Assembly (NCBI RefSeq): GCF_034424315.1 | Contig: NZ_CP139972.1 | Location: 682,001 to 746,000 of the forward strand | Length of the DNA stretch: 64,000 nt | Source: Chitinophaga sancti | GTDB taxonomy: Bacteria > Bacteroidota > Bacteroidia > Chitinophagales > Chitinophagaceae | Direction: 5' to 3' | Shown: positions 9,428 to 56,006 of the stretch, piece after piece | How positions within the stretch are numbered: position 1 is the stretch's first letter | Layout: every line of letters starts with the position of its first letter | Made by a program: the position numbers and the translations under genes | Notes under the pieces: generated by a model | Databases searched by the model: none | Told to the model about the DNA's origin: nothing | What the model saw: the letters and a program-made list of their open reading frames with translations, nothing else

Positions 9428-9508
9428 CAACTGTCATTTTTACATTTGACCGTACTCATTGGCCGGCGGGCTATATATGCGAACCTTTGCGTATAAACCC
9501 TCCTTGTT

Positions 9509-11269
9509 ATGCACACCGACGTATATCAGCCTTTGCCACCAAACAATGTCGCTATTGCGGATATCTTCCATCACATGGCAGCTTGTTACAGGTATATGGG
9601 TAAAGACCATTACGATCAGGTACAGGCATATGACCGGGCGGCTACCTGCCTGCGCAGATTGCCTGTAGATATTGAAGTATTCAGAACCCGCCTCCGGGAA
9701 GTGACAGGCCTGACGGAAGTAATCAGGGGGGAGATTATGGAATACCTGGAAGCCGGGTGCATTCAACACTACCAGCGCTTTAAAAATAAAGTTCCTTTCG
9801 AACTGCTGGATCTCCTTGAAATAAAGGGTTTCGGACCTTCTACCGTGAAATTATTGCATGAAACCTGCGGGATTCAAAACAGGGATCAGCTCATCACTGC
9901 GCTGCAATATGGCAGACTGGATGATGTAGGTGAGATCAGTCCTGTGAAACTGGATCTGATGAAGCGCAGTTTCAAATTACATAAAACTTCTTCCAACCGT
10001 TTACTGCTTTGGGATGCATTGCTGCAGGGCAACGAGATACTGCGTGTGCTGCGCCTCATCAAAGGAGTTTCTCATGCAGAGATAGCAGGTAGTCTGCGCC
10101 GTGGTTGCGAAACCATCGGAGACCTGGACATCGTATTGCAGGTGGATGAGCCCGAACGCGAACAGGTAACCGCACAGATTGTGCAGTTGCCGCATGTGGA
10201 AAGCGTGGTGCTTAGTGGAAGAAACAGAATCTGCGTAGTTCTCTACAACCATACACAACTAGACATCAGGATGGCCGGTGCTACAGCCTTTGGGGCAAGC
10301 TGGCTGTATTTTACAGGCAGCCGTGAGCACCTGCTCCACCTGACTGATCTGGCAGAACAAAAAGGATTTACCCTCACGCCTGAAGGCCTGTTTGATACCA
10401 TGGGCAACCATATGGCAGGTGTGAATGAAGAGGGAATTTATCAGCAGCTGGGTATTGCCTTCATTCCACCCGAACTGCGGGAAAGTGGTAAGGAAATACG
10501 CCGCGCTGCACGTAATATGTTGCCCAACCTGCTGGCACAACACCAGATTAAAGGGGACCTGCGCATGCATGTAGACGAACATCTGCATGACAGCATTGCA
10601 ACTACGGCACATTACGTAATGAATGCCTTTCCACAATATGAATACATAGTAGCGGCTGCACATGGCGATACGCAGGACAAAAAAGGATTAGCAGCATGGA
10701 TCAGTAATATAGACCGCATTAACGAACAAATAGGCTGGGCCTTCCTGAAAAAAGGACTTACAGTAGAAATTTTACAGGATGGTACGCCTGCGCTGCCCGC
10801 TTCTCTGCTACAACAGTTTGACTGGGTAACCGGTATCGTATTGAAAGATACAGATAAGGAGGTGACCCAGCGTCTGCTCACTGCCTGTGAGCATCCATTT
10901 ATTCATTGCATAGGCAATCCGTCCAACAGGATCATTGGCAAGAAGAAACCTTCTGCCGTCAACTGGGAACTGCTGTTTGAAAAAGCGGCAGCTACAAGCA
11001 CTGCTTTGGAAATAAACGCGCAGCCCTGCCGGATGGACCTGCGGGATGAATGGGTGAGAAGAGCGGTGGAGAAAAAAGTATACCTGGCAATAGGCAGTTG
11101 TGCTGCAATTATGCGACAAGTGGATTATATGCAGCTGGGTGTTACGCTGGCCAGGAGAGGCTGGTGCAAATGCGAAAATATTCTGAATACCATGCATTGG
11201 GATGCCATTGAACAATTCAAGCTATCCCGTGAAAATGCATTATCGCTCACAAATATAAAACACGTTTGA
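9509..11269 (+). CDS. Family X DNA polymerase-like protein with degenerate PHP domain
   Basis: A 586-residue PolX-type protein. Order: helical N-terminus (1-60), helix-hairpin-helix region (~95-160, with IKGFGPSTVKLLHE), family X palm (~180-310, with AGSLRRGCETIGDLDIVL) and a PHP domain (~345-580). The palm keeps its three metal Asp (D205, D207, D252), so gap-filling synthesis in base excision repair is plausible. The PHP domain, a Mn-dependent 3'-5' exonuclease in most bacterial PolX, has lost most ligands: LRMH for LHxH, AAAH for TDH, no His at the VHS site, GNP for GHP, GSCAA for NTDAH. Exonuclease activity is therefore unlikely. It starts 81 bp after the debranching gene and ends 1 bp before the UspA gene. 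Confidence 0.9.
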   Translation: MHTDVYQPLPPNNVAIADIFHHMAACYRYMGKDHYDQVQAYDRAATCLRRLPVDIEVFRTRLREVTGLTEVIRGEIMEYLEAGCIQHYQRFKNKVPFELLDLLEIKGFGPSTVKLLHETCGIQNRDQLITALQYGRLDDVGEISPVKLDLMKRSFKLHKTSSNRLLLWDALLQGNEILRVLRLIKGVSHAEIAGSLRRGCETIGDLDIVLQVDEPEREQVTAQIVQLPHVESVVLSGRNRICVVLYNHTQLDIRMAGATAFGASWLYFTGSREHLLHLTDLAEQKGFTLTPEGLFDTMGNHMAGVNEEGIYQQLGIAFIPPELRESGKEIRRAARNMLPNLLAQHQIKGDLRMHVDEHLHDSIATTAHYVMNAFPQYEYIVAAAHGDTQDKKGLAAWISNIDRINEQIGWAFLKKGLTVEILQDGTPALPASLLQQFDWVTGIVLKDTDKEVTQRLLTACEHPFIHCIGNPSNRIIGKKKPSAVNWELLFEKAAATSTALEINAQPCRMDLRDEWVRRAVEKKVYLAIGSCAAIMRQVDYMQLGVTLARRGWCKCENILNTMHWDAIEQFKLSRENALSLTNIKHV

Positions 11270-11270
11270 T

Positions 11271-12101
11271 ATGAAAACGATTTTATTGGTGCTGAATGGC
11301 CCTAATATGGCAAACACGATTGCTTTTGGCTGCTATCTTTCTGGTATTACAAGAGCCAGACTGGTAGGTGTGTTCCTGTGTGATAAGATCAGTGAAACTA
11401 CGACTGCCCTAAAGGAAATGTATGGAAATAGCTATGTAGAAAGTATCCTGGCCGAGGACCTGCCTGAACGTACAAATGAGAGGATGGAGCAACATATAGG
11501 CCTGTTCAAGGAAACCTGCCGTAAGAAAGGAATCAATGCCACTATGTATTCTAATCAACGGGTTACTTTGAAAGAAGTATTGGCAGAAAGCCGTTTTGTG
11601 GATCTGATCGTGACTGACAGTATATTCAGCAGCGATAAATCCAGAGAAGGTTTACCTGACAATATGCTGAAGATATTGCTGGCGGGTGCTGAATGTCCTG
11701 TGCTGATCACGCCGTTCAAACCTACCCCTATTGAAGAAATTGTATTTTGCTATGACGGTAGTGAAGAAGCCTTCTTTGCCATGAAGCAACTGGTGTACCT
11801 CCTGCCCGAACTGGATGAAGTAAAAGCGACTGTGCTGGAAGTGAACAGTGGACAGATCATTGAGGAAAATGAACAGCTGCAGGTGTCTGACTGGTTGAGC
11901 CGTCATTATAGTTATACCGAGTTTGTAATAGTGAATGGGAAGCCTGAGGTGGAATTGTTCTCTTACCTGGCACCTAAAAAGAATACACTGGTTGTGATGG
12001 GGGCTTATGGAAGAAGTATTCTCTCCCGTTTCTTCCAGGAAAGTAAGGCAGATAAGCTGATTAAGCAGCTGGCATTCCCGCTGTTTATTACGCATCACTA
12101 A
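11271..12101 (+). CDS. Universal stress protein, tandem UspA domains
   Basis: A 276-residue protein made of two Usp folds (~1-145 and ~150-276). The second ends with the ATP-binding type signature MGAYGRSILSRFF plus a conserved PLFITHH strand; the first has a degenerate loop and probably binds no nucleotide. These proteins act in the cytosol in stress and starvation responses through poorly defined partners. The ATG falls 1 bp after the PolX-like stop, which indicates co-transcription and perhaps translational coupling. Confidence 0.88.
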   Translation: MKTILLVLNGPNMANTIAFGCYLSGITRARLVGVFLCDKISETTTALKEMYGNSYVESILAEDLPERTNERMEQHIGLFKETCRKKGINATMYSNQRVTLKEVLAESRFVDLIVTDSIFSSDKSREGLPDNMLKILLAGAECPVLITPFKPTPIEEIVFCYDGSEEAFFAMKQLVYLLPELDEVKATVLEVNSGQIIEENEQLQVSDWLSRHYSYTEFVIVNGKPEVELFSYLAPKKNTLVVMGAYGRSILSRFFQESKADKLIKQLAFPLFITHH

Positions 12102-12165
12102 GATGAAATTTATATAAGGTTGAATTAACCTGAAAAAATCCGAAAAGCATTATTATTTTAGTGAC

Positions 12166-13686
12166 ATGGATAATAATGTTACAGGTTTTTCCCGCAGGGG
12201 TTTTCTCAAATCAGGCAGTGGTATTGTGGCCGGATTAATGATACCGGCATCTGTGAAGGGATTGTTTGCAAAGGAGAAAGCCACGGTGAATGTGGATGTG
12301 AATGAGATCAGGGGCATGATTGCTCCGGAAGTATACGGACAGTTTATAGAGCACCTGGGCAGGGCGATTTATGGAGGTATCTATGATGAATCAACTAAGA
12401 GTTTTCGCAAAGATGTACTCTCCGAAGTGAAGAAGCTGAATACACCTTTGATGCGCTATCCTGGTGGTACAGTGACAAAGATTTATCACTGGAAAGACGG
12501 GATCGGTCCTGTAGATAAGCGGCCTGTAAGGCGCAACCTGATCTGGGGTGGAGAGGATACGAATCATTTTGGTACGGACGAATTTATGCAATATAGCGCC
12601 GAACTGGGCGCAGCGCCTTTTCTCACGGTAAATATGAATACCGGCACAGCAGAGGAGGCGTCAGACTGGGTGGAGTACTGCAATGCGAACGGCAACAGTT
12701 ATTTTGCCACCCTACGTAATACGAATGGACATGCAGCGCCCTATAATGTCAAATTCTGGGGGCTGGGAAATGAAGAAGCGGCCAAAGAGGACGCGGGGTT
12801 ATTGCAAAACCCTGACGACTATATTAAAAAGGCCTGGTATTTTGCAAAGCTGATGAAATTGCAGGATCCGGATATCAGCCTGGTACTGGTAGGTGATAAT
12901 GATGAGTGGAACAGGAAGGTACTGACAGAGATGCATCCGATATGTGATTTTATTTCCTTGCACCTGTATGCGGGTACCCAGGCCGGTAAGCCAGCCAGTT
13001 TGTTTGCGTCTATCGCTTCGATGGAGAAACGCATTGAGGAAACGGCAAAACTGATTCATGAAGTAGCACCTGAAAAGGTAGAACACTTTAATAAATGGTA
13101 CCGTTTTCCCGGCAGGCAAAAGCCGGTGAAGATTGCGCTGGATGAATGGGGCATCTGGGAATCAGGTGGCACGGGCGATTATGGGCTGGAGGTGAAGTAC
13201 AACTGGAACCATGCGCTGGGTGTGGCCACTTTCTTTAATATCTTTCACCGGCATGCAGATGTGATTGGAATGGCGACCTGGGCACAGACCGTGAATGTAC
13301 TGGCGCCTATTATGACAGATAAAGATCGCGTGTACCTGCAAACGATCTTTTACCCGATGCTGATGTACCGGAAATTGTGCGGCGATAAGAGCGTAGGAGT
13401 GAAAGTGGAAGGGCCTTCATTTGAAGGGAATCCATCTTTGGATGTATCGGCGACGGTGGGGAATGGCTTGCTGACCCTGGCCATTGTGAACAGGGATCCT
13501 AAGCAGGATATCGATATTAGTTTAAATAAGAACGGAGATTGGAAGGTGTATTTGTTGAATGCGCCTGGAACAGAGGTGGAGAATACGTTTGGGAAGGATG
13601 TGGTGATGCATAAGGAGAGTAGTTTGAAAGGGGCATCCTATACCGCACCAGCACACAGTATTTCGTTTTTGCAAATAAAAATTTAG
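12166..13686 (+). CDS. GH51 alpha-L-arabinofuranosidase, Tat-exported
   Basis: A 506-residue glycoside hydrolase of family 51 that releases terminal arabinofuranose from arabinan, arabinoxylan or pectin side chains. Residues 9-30 hold a Tat signal (SRRGFLK followed by a hydrophobic stretch), so the enzyme is exported folded. The catalytic (beta/alpha)8 barrel shows the acid/base in GLGNE (E203) and the nucleophile in ALDEWG (E327); the C-terminal beta domain runs from ~410. It is monocistronic and followed by a perfect 20-bp inverted repeat. It could supply side-chain cleavage for the rhamnogalacturonan genes 10 kb downstream, but that link is inference. Confidence 0.94.
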   Translation: MDNNVTGFSRRGFLKSGSGIVAGLMIPASVKGLFAKEKATVNVDVNEIRGMIAPEVYGQFIEHLGRAIYGGIYDESTKSFRKDVLSEVKKLNTPLMRYPGGTVTKIYHWKDGIGPVDKRPVRRNLIWGGEDTNHFGTDEFMQYSAELGAAPFLTVNMNTGTAEEASDWVEYCNANGNSYFATLRNTNGHAAPYNVKFWGLGNEEAAKEDAGLLQNPDDYIKKAWYFAKLMKLQDPDISLVLVGDNDEWNRKVLTEMHPICDFISLHLYAGTQAGKPASLFASIASMEKRIEETAKLIHEVAPEKVEHFNKWYRFPGRQKPVKIALDEWGIWESGGTGDYGLEVKYNWNHALGVATFFNIFHRHADVIGMATWAQTVNVLAPIMTDKDRVYLQTIFYPMLMYRKLCGDKSVGVKVEGPSFEGNPSLDVSATVGNGLLTLAIVNRDPKQDIDISLNKNGDWKVYLLNAPGTEVENTFGKDVVMHKESSLKGASYTAPAHSISFLQIKI

Positions 13687-30409: not shown

Positions 30410-30497
30410 CCCGCAGATAAGCCGCCTATATCCCGCCTCTTATATAATGCGGGTTATAGGCGGCTTATTGGCGGGATATAGGCGGGTTATCTGCGGG
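30410..30497. terminator. Large nested inverted repeat between convergent genes
   Basis: The arm at 30410-30437 pairs with 30470-30497 over 28 positions with one mismatch. An alternative internal pairing exists: GCCGCCTATA (30421-30430) with TATAGGCGGC (30455-30464). The element fills the 118-bp gap between the stops of the PI-PLC gene (+) and sprA (-), so it probably terminates both. The GC-rich arms with repeated TATAGGCGG modules are longer than an ordinary terminator. Confidence 0.75.
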
Positions 30498-51927: not shown

Positions 51928-53286
51928 TCAGGCGCCTTCAATCTCGCCTGTCTGAAGCATTTTGTAAATAGTAGACTTACCAATATCCAGTTTTTCCGCT
52001 ACCAGCAGCACATTATCGTTGTACCGTTTCAGGTAGTTGCGGATAATCAGGCGCGTATACTCTCTGAGCGTTAACTCAGTATTGAGTACTGTGTCTACAT
52101 CGTGGTTATTTCCGGAGAGGAAGGTGATATCGTCCGGCTCAATGATATTGTTTTCAGACATCACTGCGGCCAGTTCTATCACTGATTTTAATTCACGGAT
52201 ATTACCGGGATAATTATAGGTCAGCAGCTTTTCCCTGCCGGCAGGAGAGACCCTGATTTCCGGAATCTTATTTTCCTTGCAGTAATTGGAGAGGAAAAAC
52301 TGGGTTAGAAGCAGGAGGTCATCCTTTCTTTCCCGGAGGGGAGGGAGCGCAATCGGCAGACCTACGATACGGTAATACAGGTCTTCCCTGAAATTTCCTT
52401 TTTTCACCTCATCAGCCAGGTTTTTGTGGGTTGCCACGACCAGGCGGAAGTCCAGCTTAATCTTGCTGTTGCCTCCCAGGCGGATCAGTTCTTTTTCCTG
52501 CAATACCCGGAGCAGTTTGCTTTGAATATTGAGGTCCATTTCCCCGATTTCATCCAGGAAGAGGGTGCCACCATTCGCTTCCTCGAATCGCCCGATTTTG
52601 CGGTTCTGTGCCCCTGTAAAAGCACCCTTTTCGTAACCGAACAATTCACTTTCCACCAGTTCCTTCGGAATAGCGGCCATGTTCACCGCCACATATGGAT
52701 GGCCGCTCCGGGCAGAGTTATAATGGACAGCCTTGGCGACCAGTTCCTTGCCCGTACCGGTTTCTCCGGTGATGGATACATTGATCATGGAGCCGGCAGC
52801 CTTATCGATCAGGCGGAATACAGCCTGCAGGGCAGGGCTTTTTCCCACGATGGAAATAGAATAGTCATACCGGGTCTTGAGTTCTGCTTTTAGCTGTGTG
52901 ATCTCATTTTTGAGGGATTGATTTTCCCGCAGGCGGATGATGGCTTTCCAGAGTAATTGCTGGGTGTTTTCATCCTTGACGAGGTAATCTTCTGCACCCA
53001 TTTTAAGGAGATCTACGGCGGTGGTGATCTTTTCCTGGGCGCTGATGATGATCACAGGAACATTGGGTTGAGCCTGCTTTATCTTACGGTACAGTTCTTC
53101 GCCATTCATATCGGGAAGACCGAAATCGATAGTAATCAGATCTGGTTTACGGTGCAATTGGGCCAGGCATTCCTTACCTGAGCCGATCAGGGTTACTTCG
53201 TAATCGGGGTTCTGACTGAGGTAGTGTTCCAACAAATTGCCATACCATTTGTCGTCTTCAACTATAAATATCTTAAAATCGAGCAT
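51928..53286 (-). CDS. NtrC-type sigma-54-dependent response regulator
   Basis: A 452-residue activator. Receiver ~1-120 (acceptor D54 in [11 protein letters not shown]), AAA+ domain ~145-375 with Walker A GETGTGKE, the sigma-54 contact loop [11 protein letters not shown], Walker [13 protein letters not shown] and the arginine-finger region FREDLYYRI, then a Fis-type helix-turn-helix at the C-terminus ([14 protein letters not shown]). On phosphorylation it should activate sigma-54 promoters. It is the first gene of an operon with the Hpt protein and is preceded by 1.5 kb of unusual non-coding DNA. Confidence 0.95.
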
Positions 53287-53681
53287 TCATGGAATTTTCC
53301 GTTAAATTAGGAAATTTTCCAATCATGATCGATTCAGTTCCTGATCAGTTTTGATCATTTTTCCACTATTGCTGCAATATTTTTATGCAGGGTGTCTAAA
53401 ATCTTAAGCCGATAATGTAAATTTTTAATGCTAATGACCCATCCCTGGCCCCACTCCGTCGTACAAAATCTTATCACGTGGGGCCTGGATGAATCGGTTA
53501 TGAAAAAAGCGCGATATTTCTTTAATTTCTTTTGCTCTCTACGATTCACTTTTACTTTATGAATCATCTCCTGGCCCCTTCGCTGGTTTCCCCATTCAAC
53601 ATCTGCACAGGGGCCGGGATGACGCATTCTCACATATTGTTCACTAGTTATAAAAAAATCTTCTGTAATGACGAGCTCTTA

Positions 53682-53798
53682 TGTTAGCATACGTTATGGT
53701 GTGAAAAACTCTATTGCCAGCAAGTACGCTATTGTTGCATCTAAACGCTCTGATTAGTAATCACTCAATTGTTAGCATAGGTTATGATCTTTCACACC
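53682..53798. repeat. Paired direct and inverted repeat
   Basis: TGTTAGCATACGTTATG (53682-53698) recurs with one change at 53770-53786. Directly after the first copy is GGTGTGAAA (53698-53706) and after the second its complement TTTCACACC (53790-53798). The pair could be protein-binding boxes or a scar. Confidence 0.6.
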
Positions 53799-53923
53799 TG
53801 TTCGCTCTGCACCTTTTTCATTGTTCACTCTTTCAAATGCACTGGCAATGATTTTTTTCATACTCACATGGATGATCTCTTTCACTTATCATTTTCACAT
53901 AAAATCTCTTCACTTCCCGTTCT

Positions 53924-54100
53924 CAATTCAACCTCACCACACAATACCTCCACACTTCCTAGTCCTTCTCACAATTCAATCTCCACACTTTCTACATTCA
54001 ATTCAACCTCATCACATAATACCTCCACACTTCCTAGTCCTTCCCGCAATTCAATCTCCTCACTTTCTACGTTCAATTCAACCTCACCACACAAATCCTT
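53924..54100 (+). repeat. CT-rich tandem repeat, 75-bp period
   Basis: CAATTCAACCTCA recurs with its surroundings at 53924, 53999 and 54074, an exact 75-bp period over about 2.4 copies. A second shared block, CCTCCACACTTCCTAGTCCT, lies inside each full unit. Because 75 is divisible by 3, a plus-strand frame shows a 25-residue Ser/Thr/Pro/Asn repeat, but without a signal or homology I treat it as non-coding. Confidence 0.85.
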
Positions 54101-54833
54101 CTCACTTCATCCTCCATCCCGTTCACATCTCTTCGCATCCCCCAAACGACTCCTTCCATTCTCTCAGCACTCCTAAAAATCATTGCCATTCCTCCCTCTC
54201 TGTTTAAAAGCAAAATCAAAATCCCCTTTACTTTCCTGCTTTGTTCCGCCACGGAACCATTATAAAAACCCGAAATCAAAATTCCTTCTCAACATAGCTC
54301 CTTTCCCCTGGCCCCTTCCATCATCCCGGTCTTCTCTACCACCGGGGCCAGGATCCGAAGTTTTCACATGCTCTTAACAAAAAATAACCCCTAAAAAACC
54401 ATTATATAAAACAAAACCCCAAATAAAATCGCTCTCAATCAAACTTCCATCTCCAGGCTCCTCACACAATATCTCCCCCTAAAAAACCTATCGGAGCCGG
54501 GATGTGAAGTCACATACTCTGAACAAAACCCTATGAAAAAACCCCTATGAAATATGAAAAACCCCAGCTTCATCGCTTTCCAAAACCTCAAAAACAAAAT
54601 CGCTCTCTCAACTCCGCAATAAAATCTCTTTCAAACTAAACTTCCATCTCCTGGCCCCTTCCTCAAAATCTCCCCTGTTAATATCCACCGGGGCCGGGAT
54701 GTGAAGTTCCACATACTCAAACAAAATATCTTTCATCGAATCCAGTATCCGCAGGCCCCATTTCCTTTCGCTTGTCCCCCTCTTACTTCACAGTGGGGCC
54801 CCGATACTGATACACGCAACAAAAAGTTTCTAA

Positions 54834-56006
54834 TTAGTTCAACGCGGTGTTCAGGTATTCCTGCAAAGCCGCAGGATAAAGCAATACCTCAGCTACCTCT
54901 TGTTTTTTAATGGGAGTATAGCAGGTTCCCTCCATAAATACATCCTCTACCTGCTGCTTGAAATGTGTAGGCTTAAACTGACTTGCTACCAGCTGCGCCG
55001 CACAACTCATATCCGCGTATAATGGCTTGTTGTTTAATAACTGCTCAACATGTTTGCGTACCTGCTCTACATAATGACCACTGATGCGGTATCCGTTCCA
55101 ACCATGCGCTACCAGCTCATTCGCTCCACCAGCCAGAGGTACAATCACCGGGCGACCATAACTCATCGCCTGAAGAATACTGATATCAAACGTCTCCTGG
55201 TAATGTGCCGCATGAGACAGGTTTAGTACTACAGCCGCACGTTGATAGAATGGGTGCATATTCAGCTGTGTATCGTAAATCATGAGGTTAGCCGGTACCT
55301 TCATGCCTTTAAAATGTTCTGCAATTTCTTTATATGTCGCCTTGATAATCAGTTCAAACTTCGTTTGAGGCATGGCATTCGCCAGTTCTATTAATTCGGC
55401 CACACCGCTTTGCGCTTCCAGATTAGCCACCATCAGGATGGTTTTTCGGCTGCCCTGATTCGCATGTAATATCGCCTCCTGAACAAATGAACTTGGCAGG
55501 CAACTATGAATAATTCTCTTTTCTGCTTTCTTAAATTCAAACTGAGACTGTACAAACCTCGAAGCATATACGACCTGCTGTGCTAATACCTGTGCACTCT
55601 TCAACATCACCTTTCTGAATGCTGCCGGCTGTATGGCGGTCTCGTGAATGTGGTAGGTCAGGTGCGCTCCCTTCAGCCTGCTGGCCCATGCTGCTCCAAA
55701 AGGTTGTAACGTATTCACATATACTTTATCATCCTTTTTACTCAACCAAAGTACCTTGAAGAAGATACTCATCTGCGCCAGCAGGAAGCTGAAGAATAAA
55801 CGCGTTTTGTTCCCCCGTTCTATATAATTTATGTAGTGATACTGTATGTTTGATAAATCGGTCAGGTATCCCGGTGTATGCGCATTGCCGTTTGTAATCA
55901 AATGGATGTCCATGCCTTTCCCCGCTAATGCTTCCAGCGATTCGCGGAAGATCAGTGTGTTACCACTCCTGTCGTTCGATAAGTGAACTGCTATTATCTT
56001 TTTCAT
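54834..56006 (-). CDS. Glycosyltransferase, GT4-like
   Basis: A 390-residue GT-B glycosyltransferase. The N-terminal Rossmann half (1-180) has DRSGNTLIFRESLEALAGKG and a short hydrophobic stretch (LFFSFLLAQMSIFF) that may dip into the membrane. The C-terminal half has the donor-site segment QETFDISILQAMSYGRPVIVP (EX7E-type, one Glu at QETFD) and GGANELVAHGWNG, as in GT4. It should transfer a sugar to a surface polymer or lipid; specificity is unknown. Alone on the minus strand. Confidence 0.88.
   Translation of the reverse strand: MKKIIAVHLSNDRSGNTLIFRESLEALAGKGMDIHLITNGNAHTPGYLTDLSNIQYHYINYIERGNKTRLFFSFLLAQMSIFFKVLWLSKKDDKVYVNTLQPFGAAWASRLKGAHLTYHIHETAIQPAAFRKVMLKSAQVLAQQVVYASRFVQSQFEFKKAEKRIIHSCLPSSFVQEAILHANQGSRKTILMVANLEAQSGVAELIELANAMPQTKFELIIKATYKEIAEHFKGMKVPANLMIYDTQLNMHPFYQRAAVVLNLSHAAHYQETFDISILQAMSYGRPVIVPLAGGANELVAHGWNGYRISGHYVEQVRKHVEQLLNNKPLYADMSCAAQLVASQFKPTHFKQQVEDVFMEGTCYTPIKKQEVAEVLLYPAALQEYLNTALN

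Follow-up and report, generated by a model that had tools for sequence, protein, structure and literature searches.

Six hairpins downstream of a glycosyltransferase gene

What are the six similar hairpins that occupy the apparently non-coding 1.5-kb stretch between a response regulator gene and a glycosyltransferase gene in the soil bacterium Chitinophaga sancti, and do they act as RNA? The locus was studied within a window of 64,000 nucleotides (the whole stretch of DNA that was analysed) from a genome that consists of a single contig of 8.42 Mb. On one side of the hairpin array lies a group 1 (GT4-like) glycosyltransferase gene (54834..56006, minus strand) and on the other a gene for a sigma-54-activator response regulator (51928..53286, minus strand); three ORFs (92-130 codons) overlap the array region and had no Pfam match at E 0.1. 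All six hairpins of the original prediction were found where it had placed them, and each matched R1, our covariance model of the element, on the minus strand: copy 1 at 53440..53491 (core 53447-53485; E 1.2e-7), copy 2 at 53565..53621 (core 53573-53615; E 3.9e-17), copy 3 at 54302..54355 (core 54310-54349; E 1.5e-8), copy 4 at 54448..54504 (core 54456-54498; E 6e-7), copy 5 at 54645..54701 (core 54653-54695; E 9.7e-14) and copy 6 at 54743..54809 (core 54754-54800; E 2.4e-5), the last being the hairpin closest to the glycosyltransferase stop codon. The finer details that had been described were likewise present, namely the compensated core GGCTCC/GGAGCC of copy 4, the 3' flank common to copies 3-5, and the stem extensions of copies 1 and 6, of which the former combines an 8-bp core (GGCCCCAC/GTGGGGCC) with an outer CATCC/GGATG and the latter is lengthened inwards, with one T.G wobble, and carries a distinct, separate outer stem (CAGTATC/GATACTG).

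The element was concentrated at this one place. R1 matched six times in the genome, always in the array, and a strict pattern (TGGCCCC-N14-44-GGGGCCNGGAT) gave four matches in the 8.42 Mb, all at the array, versus 0 for the reversed control, while a loose pattern (GGCYCC-N14-44-GGRGCC) occurred at 25 places genome-wide versus 17 in the control, with 6 of the 25 falling within the 1.4 kb of the array. The array region is markedly depleted of G on the plus strand, where the GC skew falls as low as -0.85, and the spacer at 53903..54127 holds three copies of a 75-bp tandem repeat, assigned to neither strand, that is also G-poor on the plus strand. Elsewhere in the window, at 30419-30477, two overlapping GC-rich inverted repeats were noticed (AAGCCGCC/GGCGGCTT and ATCCCGCC/GGCGGGAT), each ~48 bp across.

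Distribution and synteny of the array

R1 was searched against genomes of the genus, the order and the phylum. Matches were obtained in 21 of the 79 Chitinophaga genomes searched, with 3-14 copies per genome, and the covariance-model search proposed together with the original prediction thus turned up further copies in relatives. Only the window's own genome and one other, G090, matched among 298 genomes of the order, and only the window's own among 395 of the phylum, the order and phylum sets being samples and the searches using strict filters that weak copies would escape. Among the genomes searched, the array is confined to one group of Chitinophaga. Its 21 loci hold 133 R1 matches, 132 of them on the glycosyltransferase strand; the single opposite-strand match (L045:3454-3529) is the reverse reading of a palindromic copy and was left out of the identity-thinned covariation sets. 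A lone match away from the locus, on contig 30 of G087 (E 6e-4), consisted of a hairpin preceding TGTTTATT and was considered a chance match.

In all 21 genomes that carry it, the array was located directly downstream of the glycosyltransferase gene and co-oriented with it, and glycosyltransferase matches (E 1e-70) were found in the same 21 genomes. Response regulator matches at E 1e-150 or better occurred in 23 of the 79 genus genomes (21 of these with at least 86% identity), and both genes flank the array in 20 genomes. Synteny was broken in G090 only, where ~8 kb of other genes lie between the array and the response regulator and the array still sits beside the glycosyltransferase gene, the R1 match starting 11 nt and the first stem ~28 nt after the stop codon. 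Judged by eye, the intervening G090 sequence contains arsenic-cassette-like ORFs (ArsR-, arsenate-reductase- and transporter-like; L065, ~9496-12245). Directly before the response regulator start, the window also carries an AT-rich double palindrome (GGAATTTTCC-N9-GGAAATTTTCC; 53291..53320, minus strand), which is conserved independently of the array and is possibly an autoregulatory site. The sequence GGAATTTT was observed at the response regulator start in 21 of the 23 regulator loci, including that of G090, whose array sits elsewhere.

Array copy number differs strongly between close species. In C. silvisoli, whose glycosyltransferase was 94% identical to that of the window in a scan reaching close relatives only, the corresponding interval has five hairpins, and about half of the window interval, including the 75-bp repeats, had no BLAST alignment there. 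Different repeats take the place of the 75-bp repeats in C. silvisoli, and short GTTACACCGGAGCTGAGTTTTTAAGTAGAAGGTG-like repeats, absent from that position in the window, lie between its regulator and its first hairpin (L010). In loci beyond the subgroup to which the window belongs, neighbouring hairpins are mostly spaced by 81-128 nt from centre to centre, and three intervals are wider (185, 205 and 240 nt).

Compensatory changes in the stem

The loci retrieved were 20 response regulator loci together with G007 and G010. A strict regular expression recovered hairpins in 17 of the 20 flanked loci, and a variant-tolerant finder added G013, G083 and G084. The resulting set comprised 125 elements from 20 genomes (121 finder stems, of which L046 at 280, L054 at 84 and L056 at 86 were dropped, plus seven added by hand; G090 was not part of it), all aligned in the minus-strand reading (alignment A2). 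The unit stem consists of six core pairs followed by 2 + 4 pairs, the outer pairs being CC/GG and CATC/GATG around two single-base bulges on the 3' arm. RNAalifold recovered the six-pair core, and five of its six pairs included sequences changed on both sides.

Across 124 distinct copies, 94.2% of 1475 core and outer cells were paired, and pairing fell to 60% or 52% when the partners were slid by one column. Double-changed cells numbered 65 versus 11.8 ± 2.9 in shuffles for the distinct copies, and 23 versus 4.9 (shuffled maximum 10) for 32 representatives below 70% identity, where the shuffles of the full and the thinned sets do not model the tree. The core variants GGCCCC, GGCCCU, GGCUCC, GGUCCC and GGCCUC each occurred with a matching arm, G090 adds AGCUCC/GGAGCU, and pair 41-84 included wobble intermediates (CG 97, UG 6, UA 20). 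The compensating changes that had been read from the six window copies as a sign of selected structure therefore recur as strong covariation in relatives, and compensatory changes above the shuffled control point to a structured RNA.

A conserved loop and a structured 3' tail

The loop is mostly 24-33 nt long and starts with a conserved GUG. Of the 125 copies, 98 had this triplet within loop positions 1-6 (shuffled mean 12.1, maximum 21) and 81 had a GUG further along the loop (shuffled mean 45.0, maximum 58). Conservation of a single-stranded GUG alongside that of the stem suggests that the element is recognised by a protein or an RNA and is not a plain stem. Pairing between loop and flank in a pseudoknot was rejected, as permuted partners equalled or surpassed the pairing of the real ones in 186 of 200 permutations for the 3' flank and in 200 of 200 for the 5' flank.

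The window had no terminator-like site between 53200 and 54950, and with 0 such sites in its array an intrinsic terminator was discarded as an explanation. The G090 array has a terminator-like hairpin with TTTATTTT behind it, on the glycosyltransferase strand. Taken together, these two results led us to interpret the array as the glycosyltransferase transcript's structured 3' tail. A Bacteroidetes-type promoter (TT(T/G)-N17-23-TAnnTTTG) was found on neither strand of 20 loci. Small ORFs after each hairpin, suggested by the resemblance of AGGAGATG to a ribosome site, were also rejected, the peptides being mostly shorter than 50 codons and differing between species (by eye, eight loci). A T-run accompanies the array's far-end hairpin in 7 of the 21 loci. 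In five genomes (G051, G048, G047, G046 and G086) we further observed a hairpin on the regulator side (GGCCTCC...GGAGGCC or close to it) that precedes TTTTTT ~40 nt before the regulator start and looks like a terminator or attenuator.

Our best explanation, which we hold tentatively, is that the array is a run of tandem minus-strand RNA elements in the glycosyltransferase 3' tail, or in an RNA processed from it, with putative protein sites formed by the stem and the GUG loop. The pairing with its covariation, the confinement to one group of Chitinophaga among the genomes searched, the synteny and the loop conservation are observed; we infer transcription of the array, its binding by a protein and its effect. 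By default, glycosyltransferase transcription would run through the array, which would form a structured 3' tail of the mRNA or an RNA cut from it; an RNA-binding protein may recognise the stem plus the loop with its conserved GUG, and the repeated copies would offer many protein sites on one RNA. The outcome could be that the glycosyltransferase mRNA is stabilised and insulated from the response regulator gene, or that the protein is titrated. The genome holds six RRM_1 matches, one of them partial and with a stop, and RRM proteins are perhaps candidates for binding the array, to be treated as a lead.

A second and rather unlikely explanation, in which the loop sequence is irrelevant, would be a purely cis-acting, REP-like run of stems in a 3' UTR or intercistronic region that blocks 3' exonucleases and sets unequal amounts of glycosyltransferase and regulator. 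The position of the array directly after the glycosyltransferase stop codon, the spacing of mostly 81-128 nt between centres outside the window's subgroup and the T6 that in five genomes follows the last hairpin, ~40 nt ahead of the response regulator, would all suit such stems, as would the report of palindromic repeats as mRNA stabilisers (PMC2267715); however, simple stems have no need of a loop GUG far above the shuffles (98/125 versus 12.1), and the array is not scattered over the genome. Going beyond the protein-site reading of the 3' tail, one may imagine a new modular RNA class, in which a clade-specific array of hairpins that bind a protein expands in tandem within the 3' tail of a gene, unequal crossing-over changes the number of units, selection keeps them and copy number tunes the capture of an RNA-binding protein, perhaps a Bacteroidota RRM protein; we regard this extension as speculative and at present doubtful.

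Strand of the array

The original prediction had assigned the array to a plus-strand RNA on the basis of U-G pairs in copies 2 and 5. This assignment was not supported and is probably wrong. The position in question is a single base that adjoins the core and varies between copies (in the minus reading A 63, T 34, C 24 and G 4 of 125), and this makes a bulge a better fit than a wobble pair. Among the 750 cells of the six core pairs, the minus reading gave 20 G.U and 4 A.C, and the first hairpin in G013, G083 and G084 (mis-cut in G084) accounted for all four A.C cells; judged by eye, this hairpin pairs as ACCCCC/GGGGGU (A-U) after a shift of one base. After thinning, the ratio of G.U to A.C was 9:2, 5:2, 3:2 and 3:2 at 80, 70, 60 and 55% identity, respectively. 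Mutation bias is unlikely to lie behind the G.U excess, because the neutral ratio of C-to-T over G-to-A changes in minus-strand spacers was only 1.11 (per base; eight species pairs; well-aligned columns only). In raw counts without a shuffled control, a perfect GC-rich stem with a loop of up to 45 nt and a following T-run was present in 7 of 21 loci on the minus strand versus 0 of 21 on the plus strand, and a short-loop terminator criterion gave 0 of 21 loci on the minus strand and one weak site on the plus strand. Free energy was lower on the minus strand for five of the six window hairpins.

A noncoding RNA from the plus strand would instead agree with the fold z-scores, which were more negative on that strand for six of six window hairpins (-2.6 to -4.3 versus -1.2 to -3.3), with the G-poor plus-strand spacers, which would keep the hairpins isolated, and with the inner-extension mismatches, whose direction is opposite to that of the core (1 G.U and 2 A.C in the minus reading, so that two of three wobbles fit the plus strand). 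Against it stand the 20:4 core wobbles, the single weak T-run hairpin on the plus strand in 21 loci and the co-orientation of the array with the glycosyltransferase in 21 of 21, and we consider it improbable. The array thus probably lies on the minus strand, which the cleaner plus-strand z-scores leave likely yet not settled; the minus strand and the 3'-tail location are supported but not proven.

Still less probable is an element acting as DNA. Template-switch correction and gene conversion are known to perfect palindromes, and a review on gene conversion of REPs reportedly exists. The inverted repeats, lying upstream of a sigma-54 activator gene, might on this account be protein-bound (for example as enhancer sites of the sigma-54 regulator) or form cruciforms, with palindromes matched by such correction and not by RNA selection, but the distance between the core arms is 15 or 23-35 nt with each value from 23 to 35 observed, a spread that disrupts helical phasing, wobble intermediates (G.U and U.G) are present where one-step correction would leave none, and the G090 array is not beside the response regulator.

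Comparison with known systems

To our knowledge, environmental Bacteroidota have so far yielded few structured RNAs. The original prediction had named no known element, and this holds, as no Rfam 15 covariance model matched the whole window at the gathering threshold, the array at E<=1 or L050 at E<=0.1, and broad searches of open-licence literature on Chitinophaga noncoding RNA and hairpins found no description of the element. With its clear covariation, its differences in copy number and a ready covariance model, the array offers a convenient starting point for identifying an RNA-binding protein and for following the evolution of a repeated RNA element.

Two kinds of repeat were set aside on direct inspection. 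Integron attC sites carry the boxes RYYYAAC ... GTTRRRY, which occurred in 0 of the 125 elements (box distance 20-70 nt). In type III toxin-antitoxin systems, tandem RNA repeats are followed by a ToxN-like RNase gene, and the gene downstream of the array encodes the sigma-54 response regulator. The CsrB/RsmZ sponge RNAs, which carry many stem-loops on one RNA with GGA in most loops and titrate a protein, come closer, as the array also consists of repeated stem-loops on one putative RNA that could titrate a protein. Its loops, however, are not enriched in GGA, which was below the shuffled expectation on both strands (71/125 versus 85.9 on the minus and 0/125 versus 7.6 on the plus strand), and its genome had 0 CsrA matches (PF02599; the search control was positive in 3 of 14), so that a sponge of this type was rejected.

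The REP/BIME elements of enterobacteria and pseudomonads are imperfect hairpins in non-coding DNA with clustered copies, and the array shares each of these features. It differs in occupying one locus per genome in one orientation, with a conserved loop of mostly 24-33 nt and without dispersal; the genome-wide dispersed copies typical of REP/BIME were not found with the strict pattern or R1, both of which matched only at the locus. Further marks of REP/BIME elements are a 5' GTAG/CGTC tag and a RAYT transposase as partner. REP palindromes are described as able to stabilise mRNA (PMC2267715). The pan RNA motif, located upstream of pantothenate genes, is described as a simple stem with two bulged bases, each a conserved A, that is mostly tandem and suggested to bind protein (PMC2864571). 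The array stem is also broken by two bulged bases and arranged in tandem, whereas its bulges vary, its copies number 3-14 and it has no Rfam match. Within the same phylum, Bacteroides has multicopy sRNAs (the FopS family) that are bound by RbpB, one of the 14 deriving from an mRNA 3' UTR (PMC11697453). These resemble the array in being paralogous RNA copies; FopS members, however, are spread over different loci and combine a single-stranded seed with a terminator, whereas the array consists of tandem hairpins at one locus. RbpB itself is an RRM protein. We regard the array as a previously undescribed RNA element that belongs to a familiar general kind, the hairpin arrays.
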